Shown here one piece after another: positions 22,260-28,344 of a stretch of DNA of 28,417 nucleotides; the first letter of the stretch is position 1; every line of letters begins with the position of its first letter. Under the pieces are notes generated by a model. That model was not told the origin of the DNA, did not search any database, and was given only the letters and a program-made list of their open reading frames with translations. The stretch is from a virus: positions 1 through 28,417 of the IMG/VR virus record IMGVR_UViG_3300023442_000020. One strand, 5' to 3'. The position numbers were made by a program, and so were the translations under genes.

Positions 22260-22589
22260 ATGCTACATCACGACGACACAGAGCTGTTCCGTAGGGTTGA
22301 GGAGTTCGCGCACTGCATGGCGGAGCAACACCAGCTCCCCCTTGCGGTCGTTGAACCCAAGCGGCGGCCGAACGGAGCCTTCGGCCTCTGCTATCACGAG
22401 GAGGGGCGCATCAGCATCCTGATCCGGGAGCGGGCCTTCGCCTATGACGGCGGGGACTGGGCACCACAGCCACTCCCGTGGAGCACCATACGGGATACCG
22501 TCTGCCACGAACTCGCACACCTCGTCTATCCGGACCACGGCCCACAGTGGGCCAACCTGTACGCCCGGATAAAGGAGAGTGACGGATGA
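22260..22589 (+). CDS. SprT-like zinc metalloprotease domain protein
   Basis: The 109-residue product starts MLHHDDTELFRRVEEFAHCM after GGAGG. Near its C-terminus it has DTVCHELAHLVYPDHGPQW. The HELAH motif (His83, Glu84, His87) and the following His93-Gly pair match the zinc site of SprT/Spartan-like and WLM peptidases. It lacks the C-terminal DNA-binding and zinc ribbon parts of full SprT proteins, so it is a minimal domain. Related proteins cut DNA-protein crosslinks; whether this phage copy does so is unknown. Its stop overlaps the next ATG as ATGA. Confidence 0.75.
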   Translation: MLHHDDTELFRRVEEFAHCMAEQHQLPLAVVEPKRRPNGAFGLCYHEEGRISILIRERAFAYDGGDWAPQPLPWSTIRDTVCHELAHLVYPDHGPQWANLYARIKESDG

Positions 22590-22990
22590 AACACCCAGCG
22601 GCACTACTACTCGCGGCGGCGCTGGCCCTGCCGGTAGCGGCCACGGCCGTAGCCGGGGAGCTGATGGTACATACCGTCACCGCCCACGTAGGACTCGGCC
22701 AGAAGCTCCGCACGTTCACCCCCGGCCTAGCCTACACCACCAACGGCAAACGGGTAGGGGTATTGTCCAACAGCTACGGCAAGCCCAGTCTGTACGCCGC
22801 CGCCATCATCCCGATATCCCAGCGCACGCGCATCGGGGTCGGGGCCATATCCGGCTATAAGTACAGCAACATGACCATCGACGATGACTCCACCAGCGTC
22901 ATACCGCTGGTCGCGGCGGAGGTGGATGTAACAGACAGCGTCACGCTGATCTGGTTCATGCAGGCAATCAACATATCTATCAAATTTTAA
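22586..22990 (+). CDS. Exported small outer-membrane beta-barrel-like protein
   Basis: The 134-residue product starts MKHPAALLLAAALALPVAAT, a Sec signal peptide with likely cleavage near AVA-GE. The mature part is a series of alternating strands (HTVTAHVGLG, FTPGLAYTTNGKRVGVLSNS, KPSLYAAAIIPI, RIGVGAISGY, SVIPLVAAEVDV, SVTLIWFMQAINISIKF) and ends with phenylalanine, typical of outer-membrane barrels. I recall phage proteins with the NSYGKxSxYAG pattern and no assigned function. Being exported and early, it might block superinfection or alter the envelope. The start overlaps the SprT-like stop. Confidence 0.7.
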   Translation: MKHPAALLLAAALALPVAATAVAGELMVHTVTAHVGLGQKLRTFTPGLAYTTNGKRVGVLSNSYGKPSLYAAAIIPISQRTRIGVGAISGYKYSNMTIDDDSTSVIPLVAAEVDVTDSVTLIWFMQAINISIKF

Positions 22991-24040: not shown

Positions 24041-25214
24041 CGTTATATTTCAAAACAACGGCGTTCTGGACGCGGTATCCATCGCGACCTTCGGGGTAAA
24101 CGCCAAGCAAACGGACAACCCCATCGGGTACTTCGGGACTGGCCTGAAGTACGCCATCGCTGTACTACTGCGGGAGAACCACCGTATTGTGATACAGGCC
24201 GGTGACGAGGTATTCGAGTTTACCCGCGAACAACAGGATATCCGCGGCAAGGCGTTCGAGCTTATCAAGATGAACGATACCCTGCTGGGGTTCACCACCG
24301 ACCTCGGGAAGAACTGGGAGATGTGGCAGGCATTCCGCGAGCTGTACTGTAACGCCATGGACGAACACGACGGACTTGTTACCACAGACCCAACCCGTGC
24401 CGCGCACGACAGCGAAAAGACCACGATCACCGTCACCGGCAGCGCCTTCCACGAATGCTATCTGTCGAGATCGGCTATTGTGTTGGAATCCAAACCCAAG
24501 GAAGTGACCGAGTGGGCCGATATCCACGCCGGGCGCTCAGAGTTCGTTTACTATAAGGGCATCCGTATATACGACGGGTTCCCGATCAGCGTATACACCT
24601 ACAACATCCACACCGGACTGGATATCAGCGAAGACCGCAGTGCCATTTATGGATTCCAGATGGCCCGGAGGATAGCGACGGCGATTGTGCTCAGTGAGGA
24701 CGAGGACTTTATAGAGGAAGTGCTGCTCTCCCCGCGTGGCACATTAGAGGCGGATGTTTTGGACTACATGGATGTCTACGACGAGCCCACCGACGCCTTC
24801 CTCGCCGTCGCCGAGCGGCTGCGGCTGAATCCGGCGGTCAACTCCTCCGTTTTCAAGGTACTTGCGAAACACAGACGCCTGCCGCCCCCTCCGGCAACCG
24901 AGCTAACTGATATCCAGCGACAGATGCTGAAGCGGGCGATAGTCTTCTGTAACCGCATCGGATACCCGGTCGATACCTACCCCATCACAACCACCTCCGA
25001 ACTCCGCGGCGGGATGCTGGGACTCGCCAAGGACAAGGAGATCTATTTGTCCCCTGACACTTACGGGTTTGGAACAAAATACGTGGCGGCCACCCTGATC
25101 GAGGAATACCTCCACCTCCACACCGGGCATGGTGATATGACCCGGGAGCTACAGAACCACCTGTTCAACGACATCGTTTCCCTCGGGGAACGTCTTATTG
25201 GCGAGCCGGTGTGA
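24027..25214 (+). CDS. GHKL-like ATP-binding protein with C-terminal zinc-peptidase-like motif
   Basis: The 395-residue product has NPIGYFGTGLKYAIAVLLRE (residues 31-50), resembling the glycine-rich lid of GHKL ATPases. It is followed by WQAFRELYCNAMDEHDG (100-116), resembling the N-box (Glu105, Asn109, Asp112). The order of the two is reversed relative to ordinary GHKL proteins, suggesting circular permutation. The C-terminus has ATLIEEYLHLHTGHGD (residues 355-370), with Glu359/360, His363, His365 and His368, like a divergent zinc-peptidase site. I recall phage ATP-binding proteins with this architecture and no defined function. The stop overlaps the helicase start as TGATG, implying joint synthesis. 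Confidence 0.65.
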   Translation: MQNTDVIFQNNGVLDAVSIATFGVNAKQTDNPIGYFGTGLKYAIAVLLRENHRIVIQAGDEVFEFTREQQDIRGKAFELIKMNDTLLGFTTDLGKNWEMWQAFRELYCNAMDEHDGLVTTDPTRAAHDSEKTTITVTGSAFHECYLSRSAIVLESKPKEVTEWADIHAGRSEFVYYKGIRIYDGFPISVYTYNIHTGLDISEDRSAIYGFQMARRIATAIVLSEDEDFIEEVLLSPRGTLEADVLDYMDVYDEPTDAFLAVAERLRLNPAVNSSVFKVLAKHRRLPPPPATELTDIQRQMLKRAIVFCNRIGYPVDTYPITTTSELRGGMLGLAKDKEIYLSPDTYGFGTKYVAATLIEEYLHLHTGHGDMTRELQNHLFNDIVSLGERLIGEPV

Positions 25215-26791
25215 TGTTGTACAAGACAAAGCCACGGCCCCAGCAATTAGAGGCGCTGCGCCTGTCGGATGGAAAACCCGCCTTTGCGTACTTTATGACT
25301 ATGCGAACAGGTAAAACCAAGGTCACCTTCGACGATGCGGCAAGGGCGTTCCGGGCCGGGGAAATCGACTGCTTGCTGGTGCTCGCGCCCAACGGCGTCC
25401 AACGGCAATGGGTAGAACAGGCCGCGGAACATTGCGCCGTGGAATACAAGGCGGCCTTCTACAGCGGTGGGCTCGGCGTGAAGGGCAAGCGAGCATTCAA
25501 GGAGCTTGTATCTGCGGACGTTGGCAACGCCCTGAAGATCCTTACCCTTAACTTGGAATCCATAGTGAACGCCACCGGCCGGAAGCTAATAGACGAGGCG
25601 CTGCGTAACAACAAGTGCATGATGGTGGTTGACGAGTCGACACGCATCAAGACATACAACGCCGCTACAACGAAGGCGGTTGTTGAGGCTGGGCGGGAGG
25701 CAGTATACCGGCGGTTGTTGAATGGGACTCCGATAACACAGAGTCCGCTGGATCTATACAGCCAGTTCCTATTCCTTAACCCGGCTATCCTCGGGAAGAC
25801 CACCTACACGGCGTTCAGAAACAGATACGCGGTTGTAAAGCGGTCGCTGAAGAGGTCGGGTCTGCATAAATTTAGATCGTATTGCTTCAATCAAGGCATT
25901 GATCCAAAGACGGTCAAACTGGAGGCGCTAACCTATCGCCAGTTAATGAAGGCCGGAATTAAACCGGGCCGGGATCTGTATGATAACGTGGTGGACTACC
26001 GCAACATGGAGGAGTTGGAAGCGGCCATAGCGCCCTACACTTACCGGCTATCACGCGACGAGGTGGAGGGGCTGCCGCCAATCGTCCCGTACATCCGCGA
26101 CGTGGAAATGCTCCCAGACCAGCGGAGGATCTACAAGGAGTTAGAGGATAATGCCTGCGCCCACCTTGGCATAGCGCCGACGGATTTGCTCGCGTTCTTT
26201 ATGGACGAAAACAAGGTGGAAGCCAGCAACGGTCTAACGATGTTACTCAAGGCGCAGCAGGTACTTGGCGGCCACGTAAAGAACAGCGAGGGCCAGCTAC
26301 AGTACATAAAACACAATAGAATCAACATCTTACACAGTATTCTGGACGAGGTTGTTGGCAAGGTTATAATCTGGGCGAGGTTCCAGCCTGAGATACAGGA
26401 AATTGTTACCTCGCTAAAAAGCAAGTACGGTCAGGATGCGGTAGCAGAGTTCCACGGTGGTATATCGCAGGGCGCAAGGCCGGTGGAGAAGGCGAGGTTC
26501 CAGCATAATCCAGAAACGCTATTTCTAGTTGGGCAGGTTCACGCAGGTGGTGTAGGCCAGACCTTCGACGCCGCCGACACCATCGTAAACTACAGCAACG
26601 ATTACAGCCTGTACGCCAGACTTCAATCCATAGAGCGGGCGACGGCCTACGGGAAAGGCGGTATAGCGCTGATCGACATGGTGTGCCCCGGTACCGTGGA
26701 CGAAAAAATACTGAAGGCGCTGAAGGTTAAAGAACAGCGAGCAGATAGTTTCCATTACAACACAACAGAGGAGAACGGCGATGGCAATTGA
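25214..26791 (+). CDS. SNF2-type superfamily 2 helicase
   Basis: The 525-residue product (ATG at 25214, overlapping the upstream stop) has RPQQLEALRL (Q-motif region), FMTMRTGKTKVTFD (Walker A, residues 28-40), VLAPNGVQRQWVEQ (Ia), MMVVDESTRIK (motif II, Asp140-Glu141), LLNGTPITQSPLDLYSQFLF (III) and, in the second half, VIIWARFQPEIQEIVTSL, FLVGQVHAGGVGQTFDAADT and YARLQSIERATAYGKGG (motifs IV-VI). These are SNF2/Rad54-like features found in phage helicases. Likely roles are DNA remodelling or recombination during replication. There is no extra nuclease domain. The 3' end overlaps the next gene by 11 bases. Confidence 0.9.
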   Translation: MLYKTKPRPQQLEALRLSDGKPAFAYFMTMRTGKTKVTFDDAARAFRAGEIDCLLVLAPNGVQRQWVEQAAEHCAVEYKAAFYSGGLGVKGKRAFKELVSADVGNALKILTLNLESIVNATGRKLIDEALRNNKCMMVVDESTRIKTYNAATTKAVVEAGREAVYRRLLNGTPITQSPLDLYSQFLFLNPAILGKTTYTAFRNRYAVVKRSLKRSGLHKFRSYCFNQGIDPKTVKLEALTYRQLMKAGIKPGRDLYDNVVDYRNMEELEAAIAPYTYRLSRDEVEGLPPIVPYIRDVEMLPDQRRIYKELEDNACAHLGIAPTDLLAFFMDENKVEASNGLTMLLKAQQVLGGHVKNSEGQLQYIKHNRINILHSILDEVVGKVIIWARFQPEIQEIVTSLKSKYGQDAVAEFHGGISQGARPVEKARFQHNPETLFLVGQVHAGGVGQTFDAADTIVNYSNDYSLYARLQSIERATAYGKGGIALIDMVCPGTVDEKILKALKVKEQRADSFHYNTTEENGDGN

Positions 26792-27323
26792 TTTTGAAGA
26801 AGGGGTGGAAGGCCCGACAAATGAGCAGATTGGAGAGATATCCAGTCTCGCAGAGTTACAGCGCAAGCAGGAGGCGGATGTCGAGGATTTAGAAAAGCGA
26901 TTAAAGACGGCACTCGCCGCTCTCCGCCAGACGCAGGAACAGGACTTGCCCGCTGCAATGCTGGCCGCCGGAATGGAACAGTTCAAAACAACCGGCGGGG
27001 TGAGCATCGGCATCAAGGAGACGCTGTACGCAAGCATCCCAAAAGCCAAAAGACCGGCGGCGGTAGCGTGGCTGTTGGAGCACAACCAAGAGAGCTTGGT
27101 AAAAGAAGATGTGGTGATACCCTTCGACAAGGGCGACCACCAGAAAGTTGGCGAGCTGGTGTCGCTGCTCGAACAGGCCGGATACGACCAGTTCTCGGTG
27201 AACGAGGCCATTAACACCGGGTCGGTGAAGGCCATGATCCGGGAGATGCTGGAGAACGGCGACGATGTCCCGCTGGATACCTTCGGCGCATACTTTCACC
27301 GTAAGGCGGTGATTTCGCTATGA
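26781..27323 (+). CDS. Conserved phage early protein, unknown function
   Basis: The 180-residue product starts MAIDFEEGVEGPTNEQIGEI with GAGGAG before the ATG. It has a coiled coil (residues about 20-55), then DLPAAMLAAGMEQFKTTGGV and IGIKETLYASIPKAKRPAAV with AWLLEHNQESLVK. This pattern (LPxAMxxxGMxxFxxxxGxxIxIKExxxAxIPK...AxxWLxxN) occurs in many phage replication regions, function unknown. It lies between the helicase and the acidic-tailed protein, so a replication-associated role is plausible. It overlaps both neighbours. Confidence 0.7.
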   Translation: MAIDFEEGVEGPTNEQIGEISSLAELQRKQEADVEDLEKRLKTALAALRQTQEQDLPAAMLAAGMEQFKTTGGVSIGIKETLYASIPKAKRPAAVAWLLEHNQESLVKEDVVIPFDKGDHQKVGELVSLLEQAGYDQFSVNEAINTGSVKAMIREMLENGDDVPLDTFGAYFHRKAVISL

Positions 27324-27523: not shown

Positions 27524-27527
27524 AAGA

Positions 27528-27565
27528 AACGGCCTGACTGTTGGCGGCCGTTATAATTGCCAACA
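27528..27565 (+). promoter_or_regulatory. H-type RNA pseudoknot in the leader of the acidic-tailed gene
   Basis: Stem 1 is AACGGCC (27528-27534) with GGCCGTT (27546-27552). Stem 2 is TGTTGGC (27539-27545) with GCCAACA (27559-27565). Both have seven perfect pairs. Loop 1 is 4 bases, there is no base between the stems, and loop 3 is 6 bases, so both can form together and stack. An unstructured A/T-rich linker with the GGAG site (27581-27584) follows, then the ATG at 27592. A translational control element is likely. A TATAAT inside loop 3 leaves a promoter as the alternative. Confidence 0.7.
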
Positions 27566-27591
27566 ATTTATTATGAGATAGGAGATTACCG

Positions 27592-28344
27592 ATGGCCGGT
27601 AAAAATGTAGCTGAAAAGAAGAGTGCTGAATTATCCAATAGCGTAGTTGATTTTGGTGCGGATGCCGACCAAGGGTTTGAAGAGGCGGACCAAGATGCTT
27701 ACTCGATCCCGTTTGTACGCATCCTCCAATCCAACAGCCCCCAATGTAATAAGGCCGACGGAGCGTATGTCGAGGGCGCGGAATCAGGGATGTTGTTGAA
27801 CGTGGCAACCGGGGTTGTTATGAACGACATCCGGGTCGTGCCTTGCCACTACCGCCGAGTGTACGTGGAGTGGAAGCCGCTGGACGAAGGCGGTGGTTTT
27901 GTCAACGAGTATAACGCCGAGGACGGTAAGGAGCTGGCGATGACGTTGGACGAGGACTACCGGCTGGAGAACGGTAACGAGTTGACAGACACCCGGATGC
28001 ACTATTGTATCGACGCTAACACCGGAGACCCGGTGGTCATCGCAATGGCCTCCAGCCAGTTGAAGAAGTCCCGTAACTGGATGAATGTAATGCGTTCGAC
28101 GAAACGGGAACGCGAGGACGGCAGCCGGTACAACCCGGCGATGTTCAGCAGCGTCTTCCACCTCAGCACCACCCCGGAGAGCAATGACAAGGGGTCGTGG
28201 TTTGGTTGGAAGATCACCCGCGAAGGCTTTGTAGAAGACCAGCACCTCTACGACACGGCCAAGGAGTTCCGGGCTATTGTCGTTGCCGGGAAGGCCGAGG
28301 TGAAGCACGAGAAAGACGCGGTGGTTGAAGAGGAGGAATTTTAG
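27592..28344 (+). CDS. Putative ssDNA-binding/replication-associated protein with acidic tail
   Basis: The 250-residue product starts MAGKNVAEKKSAELSNSVVD. It has DAYSIPFVRILQSNSPQCNK, YVEGAESGMLLNVATG and YRRVYVEWKPLDEGGGFVNE. The order IPFxxxLQSxSPQ, YxEGAxxGMxxNxxTG, YxRxYxEWxPxxxGGG matches a widespread phage family of unassigned role found in replication modules. The C-terminus VVEEEEF is acidic with a final aromatic, as in phage and bacterial single-strand DNA-binding proteins such as T7 gp2.5. DNA binding is therefore an inference. It is preceded by a pseudoknot and has its own GGAG site. Confidence 0.6.
   Translation: MAGKNVAEKKSAELSNSVVDFGADADQGFEEADQDAYSIPFVRILQSNSPQCNKADGAYVEGAESGMLLNVATGVVMNDIRVVPCHYRRVYVEWKPLDEGGGFVNEYNAEDGKELAMTLDEDYRLENGNELTDTRMHYCIDANTGDPVVIAMASSQLKKSRNWMNVMRSTKREREDGSRYNPAMFSSVFHLSTTPESNDKGSWFGWKITREGFVEDQHLYDTAKEFRAIVVAGKAEVKHEKDAVVEEEEF

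Follow-up and report, generated by a model that had tools for sequence, protein, structure and literature searches.

A Covarying Leader Pseudoknot Upstream of PF23977 Phage Genes as a Candidate Translational Operator for a Putative ssDNA-Binding Protein

Introduction

The gene 32 translational operator of the phages T4, T2 and RB69 represents the precedent for a leader pseudoknot controlling synthesis of a phage ssDNA-binding protein (SSB) (PMC535899, PMC3014915). In T4, the knot nucleates binding of gp32; the protein subsequently covers a stretch of weaker structure with UUAAA units over the ribosome binding site (RBS), and ssDNA competes for it (PMC535899). Likewise, a leader pseudoknot serves autogenous repression of rpsO (PMC3014915), a host gene encoding the ribosomal protein S15, which was compared with the present locus in principle only. 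Furthermore, the STAXI motif comprises pseudoknots located close to genes for ssDNA-binding proteins; it is a tandem of 2–3 knots, often with UUCG tetraloops (PMC2864571). Translational repression by a phage SSB also occurs in M13, where gp5 represses gene 2 (PMC535899). This protein acts on another gene, unlike the self-control proposed below. To our knowledge, no leader knot of this kind is known for gp5 and gene 2.

The locus described here is part of a viral DNA of 28,417 nucleotides (IMG/VR record IMGVR_UViG_3300023442_000020), the whole of which is referred to as the window. It resembles gene 32 of T4, T2 and RB69 in that an H-type leader knot and a subsequent, mostly A/U-rich stretch containing the RBS precede a putative phage SSB gene. 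It differs from STAXI in possessing a single knot and no Rfam match. Rfam searches at E-values up to 5 and at the gathering thresholds returned chance-level matches elsewhere only and none at the window leader; the leaders of the relatives L229, L232, L233, L083, L550, L009, L206 and L006 were likewise without match, including to STAXI. A literature search retrieved no paper on this PF23977 leader pseudoknot.

Results and Discussion

Structure and Placement of the Leader Pseudoknot

The leftward half of the window encodes head, packaging and tail proteins. The region around the pseudoknot is composed of the following features:

25211–26791, rightward: SNF2/DNA helicase
26781–27323, + strand: Pam3 gp33-like gene (DUF7307, PF23984; profile match, E 1.4e-26), the gene usually preceding those of PF23977
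27320–27523, + strand: small ORF of 67 aa without family match, overlapping the end of the DUF7307 gene
27528–27534, + strand: stem 1, 5' arm AACGGCC (exact pairing, shuffle test, covariation)
27535–27538, + strand: loop 1, TGAC (UGA invariant in 16 leaders)
27539–27545, + strand: stem 2, 5' arm TGTTGGC (exact pairing, shuffle test, covariation)
27546–27552, + strand: stem 1, 3' arm GGCCGTT (first G pairs with C27534; U.G in most relatives)
27553–27558, + strand: loop 3, ATAATT (UAAAC-like in relatives)
27559–27565, + strand: stem 2, 3' arm GCCAACA (exact pairing, shuffle test, covariation)
27566–27591, + strand: A/T-rich linker with the Shine-Dalgarno (SD) motif AGGAG at 27580–27584 (sequence inspection)
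27592–28344, + strand: Pam3_Gp34 (PF23977) protein of 250 aa, predicted OB-fold ssDNA-binding protein with the tail ...VVEEEEF (profile match, AF2 model)

An initial annotation of the DNA, made from the sequence alone, had described two perfect 7-bp interlocking stems with loops of 4, 0 and 6 bases; both stems are exact at this site. They form an H-type pseudoknot (27528–27565) without mismatch in either stem and without a linker between them. The knot was said to end 27 bases before the ATG at 27592, for which 26 nt were counted. The linker is A/T-rich (69%) and carries the RBS, as proposed.

Summed stacking of the window pseudoknot amounts to -29.5 kcal/mol. In 400 dinucleotide-shuffled versions of the leader, this value was never reached (best shuffle: -19.4 kcal/mol), and among 1668 overlapping 68-nt stretches covering both strands of the window it was reached at one site only, the two listed hits being that single site read on either strand. 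When the leader was folded together with the first codons, a competing nested fold was obtained in which the 3' arm of stem 1 pairs with the start region (-22.5 kcal/mol). Because of this fold, energy alone is not decisive, and it is conservation that decides; moreover, predictions of nested minimum-energy folds carry no information on knots.

The stop codon of the 67-aa ORF is located 4 nt upstream of the window pseudoknot. A similar placement was observed in relatives: in 12 of the 16 leaders described in the following section, the end of the upstream stop codon falls within a range from 6 nt upstream to 1 nt downstream of the knot's first base, and the distance from the end of the knot to the start codon is 19–28 nt in each of the 16. 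Linkers of these leaders contain 46–80% A/U (two members: 46–47%), the SD motif and at most two UUAA(A) units. In L002, the upstream open frame terminates within the knot, which is paralleled by ORF32.1 overlapping the T4 knot.

Covariation and Conserved Loops in Leaders of Homologous Genes

Viral contigs and genomes served as the source of homologues of the window protein. The nearest one, L002, encodes a 63–64% identical protein and features its own leader knot with different stem letters. Knots of the same type were also identified in L003, L006, L007, L008, L128, L206, L226, L228–L230, L232, L233, L242, L560, L561 and L580. Sixteen distinct leaders of homologous genes showed the same fold with differing stem sequences. 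These leaders were selected for showing the knot; yet the 12-member clade among them has no exception.

A lack of stem conservation or covariation in relatives would, according to the initial annotation, have refuted the proposal; in this check, the stems clearly passed on both counts. Changes on both sides occur somewhere in 11 of 12 tested pairs, with 50 double-changed cells observed versus 13.3 ± 3.1 in shuffles, and none of 500 shuffles reached any of five covariation measures. Sliding the register by 1–3 columns abolished the signal, with 5–17 double-changed cells left. Paired cells account for 91–92% in each helix, and stem 2 includes seven covarying pairs. In the MAFFT alignment, L002 and L128 are shifted by one or two bases, an error that reduces rather than inflates the pair counts. 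At its junction, stem 1 has a C-G pair in the window but U.G in 13 other leaders; the register without linker is therefore acceptable, although this one pair is not proved. Moreover, the presence of G-U pairs on the sense strand points to RNA.

The invariant alignment columns are located in the loops, namely the UGA of loop 1 and one A of loop 3. UAAAC is the common form of loop 3 in relatives, from which the window differs (UAUAAUU). Thus, loops are conserved while stems change, to the point of being wholly exchanged between leaders. Based on these results, the leader pseudoknot is almost certainly a selected mRNA structure. The opposite reading, in which the knot arises by chance or from two mutually exclusive hairpins of which a single one forms in vivo, can draw on the differing nested fold of the window leader, but is hardly credible given the covariation of both stems, the share of paired cells in each and the shuffle result.

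The Downstream Protein

The window protein matched the PF23977 profile with 222 bits (cut-off 27; E 1e-65) and corresponds to PHROG 2402, annotated as 'unknown function'. In total, 501 phage records, many of them from Pseudomonas phages, matched PF23977. A Pfam scan of the window protein up to E 1 returned PF23977 alone and no match to the gp32 family PF08804. As PF23977 is the only family matched, the assumption of a family unrelated to T4 gp32 holds at the sequence level. A PF08804 search of eight relatives gave no match, but neither did the control, so that nothing follows from this result.

AF2 models were obtained for the window protein (pLDDT 87) and its relative from L233 (pLDDT 90). 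For both, the top PDB match was the recombination directionality factor (RDF) gp3 of phiC31 (Z 8.8 and 8.7, respectively). Similarity to the RB69/T4 gp32 core reached Z 7.0/6.4 over 152/154 residues for the window model and 6.5/6.4 over 162/161 residues for the L233 model, the safe limit being 8; in the latter case, the gp32 matches ranked two Z units above the next entry. Further down the lists, most entries were OB domains (RPA, SSB, polymerase epsilon, MCM). Z values near 7 can originate from a common OB arrangement. Foldseek alone gave no PDB match at E < 0.001, and a PDB sequence search with the family profile returned nothing significant. As a separate observation, phiC31 gp3 ranked ahead of gp32 in these comparisons, and a relationship between the RDFs of serine integrases and the ssDNA-binding proteins of phages may exist.

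The acidic, aromatic-ended tail noted for the window protein is a family trait: the C-terminal residue is F in 105 and Y in 30 of 158 members (135/158, 85%). The ending PF occurs in 52 of 159 members, and the last ten residues contain on average 2.7 acidic versus 0.7 basic residues. Tail forms within the family, often of the DIPF/DVPF type, include EKDIPF, DEDVPF and DDEIPF and resemble the tail of bacterial SSB, such as that of E. coli. Furthermore, the gene order helicase, gp33-like, gp34-like recurs in named relatives, and in many cases the next gene encodes a Dda-like helicase, a primase or a polymerase. The bacterial-type SSB family PF00436 was not found in eight complete relatives, the control being detected. 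Vibrio phage K228 (L555) possesses a PF23977 gene and a separate SSB-annotated gene two genes on. A literature search on the function of YuA or Pam3 gp34 retrieved nothing.

The predicted fold, the tail, the replication-type neighbours and the missing PF00436 gene suggest that the PF23977 protein is likely an SSB. The earlier designation as SSB-like is upheld by these traits, including the apparent gp32-like core fold, but finds no counterpart in a gp32-family sequence match. Elsewhere in the window (22586–22990, + strand), a 134-aa protein shows a weak match to phage PagP (lipid A acylation; PHROG 3600, E 2.6e-5).

Distribution within the PF23977 Family

To place the 16 leaders in the family context, 159 distinct leaders were scored against their own shuffles. 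Among these, 23 beat all 100 shuffles (about 1.6 expected) and 36 beat at least 99 of 100 (3 expected), the best-scoring ones belonging mostly to the UGA/UAAAC class. In the protein tree, a core clade carries the knot in 12 of 12 members, and carriers outside it are the deep pairs L128 with L226 and the window with L002, as well as L242. The protein tree is compatible with one origin followed by losses as well as with a few origins.

A relaxed-descriptor scan covered 4.07 Mb of loci. Among the matches listed, 18 had an SD/start-like match downstream, of which 13 are PF23977 leaders; none of the remaining five, among the matches listed, has a UAAA loop. Matches to the CCGC, CCTC and CTTC patterns outside PF23977 leaders were discarded, since those listed lack stem 2 or loop 3.

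Many PF23977 genes have no such leader, their upstream stop being adjacent to the start. The circuit is thus not essential to the family, and the knot marks genes with an added control element. By eye, the leaders of PB1, tabernarius, E. coli WFH, Serratia MTx and others contain no convincing knot and hairpins at most. Two further candidate leader types were noted:

Second class (YuA, PaMx11, Bordetella phages): L083 2898–2932, L550 1125–1162, L551 1093–1128, L605, L606, L607
Third kind, a long hairpin with the loop UGGCA, for which UGCCA upstream of the SD motif is a possible pairing partner: L009, L010, L014, L021

In the second class (leaders of YuA, Bordetella MW2/FP1, PaMx11, PAKlein3 and Epa5), a near-constant stem 2 CGGG/CCCG is possible, together with the stem 1 variants GGGC/GCCC, AGGC/GCCT or CGTC/GACG. 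The YuA and PaMx11 leaders beat 100 and 99 of 100 shuffles, respectively, and loop 3 of PaMx11 also contains UAAAC. The leader of the L009 group features UUCAAAC/GUUUGAA as stem 1 and UGGCA/UGCCA as stem 2. With few independent sequences, judged without a formal pair count, the YuA/PaMx11/Bordetella and L009 classes are suggestive only.

Proposed Control of Translation and Alternative Explanations

The sequence elements of the T4 layout appear to be present at this locus, with a linker that is shorter (19–28 nt versus >40 nt in T4) and contains at most one or two UUAA(A) units. As in T4, the knot adjoins or overlaps the upstream reading frame; the predicted protein core appears to resemble that of gp32. 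Unlike in T4, the protein belongs to PF23977 and not to PF08804, without sequence match, and an invariant UGA in loop 1 and UAAAC in loop 3 are combined with many different stem sequences. Moreover, the single cysteine close to the N-terminal third lacks conservation in PF23977, so that no gp32-like zinc site is evident. Since the protein gave no match to the gp32 family, the RNA is not assignable to the gene 32 operator by ancestry; by analogy, it may well work like one.

Considering sequence and analogy together, the leader is probably a cis-acting RNA operator for translation of the phage's own SSB, acting by autogenous repression as in T4 gene 32. The RNA element itself is well supported, and we infer protein binding and autoregulation. 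Excess SSB, free of ssDNA, would recognise the pseudoknot via the conserved UGA and UAAAC loops, and further monomers would then spread over the A/U-rich stretch and keep the ribosome off. Once replication generates ssDNA, SSB would be drawn off and translation would resume. In addition, a ribosome terminating on the upstream gene might open stem 1, which could couple the two genes.

It is unlikely, though to be taken seriously, that the knot is bound by another ligand (another phage protein, host S1 or S15, or a small molecule in a riboswitch-like manner), the SSB gene being target and not regulator. Strong loop conservation also fits a specific foreign ligand, and H-type knots serve a ribosomal-protein operator as well (rpsO, PMC3014915), but no Rfam riboswitch or leader matched. 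Furthermore, among the matches listed, the motif was found before PF23977 genes only; with one gene family concerned, the gene product as its own ligand is the simplest reading.

A knot functioning without any ligand has a rather small probability. It would either govern how translation of the SSB gene is coupled to, or reinitiates after, that of the upstream gene, or protect a processed 5' end, and thereby confer on the SSB message a rate and stability of its own. In favour are the location of the knot at the upstream stop (12 of 16 leaders) and leaderless relatives with adjacent stop and start, which are probably coupled. Such a function would, however, not need UGA and UAAAC loops that stay conserved despite wholly changed stems.

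A signal in transcription, namely an attenuator, an intrinsic terminator or a promoter at TATAAT (27552–27557, in loop 3), is very improbable. T runs of 4–6 follow stem 2 in many relatives (AUUUUU in several), but the window is without such a T run after stem 2, promoter and terminator scans gave no site at its leader, and in the alignment TATAAT occurs at the knot position in no relative's leader. Moreover, the conserved stems interlock instead of being nested.

Conclusions

With this knot shared by many phages unrelated to T4, a control circuit so far described for T4-type phages alone may also operate in a larger, second group of phages. It is conceivable, although we would stop short of calling it probable, that PF23977 SSBs have, more than once, retained or newly evolved a leader knot for control of their own translation, as represented by the UGA/UAAAC class, the CGGG/CCCG class and perhaps the L009 group; autogenous SSB control through such knots would in that case be a design common among phages and not a peculiarity of T4. 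A second SSB family, unrelated by sequence and equipped with a covarying leader knot, would demonstrate recurrence of the design and assign a function to PF23977, a family of unknown function. Furthermore, it would supply natural operators with exchanged stems for the long-standing problem of how a protein that binds ssDNA without specificity singles out its own message.
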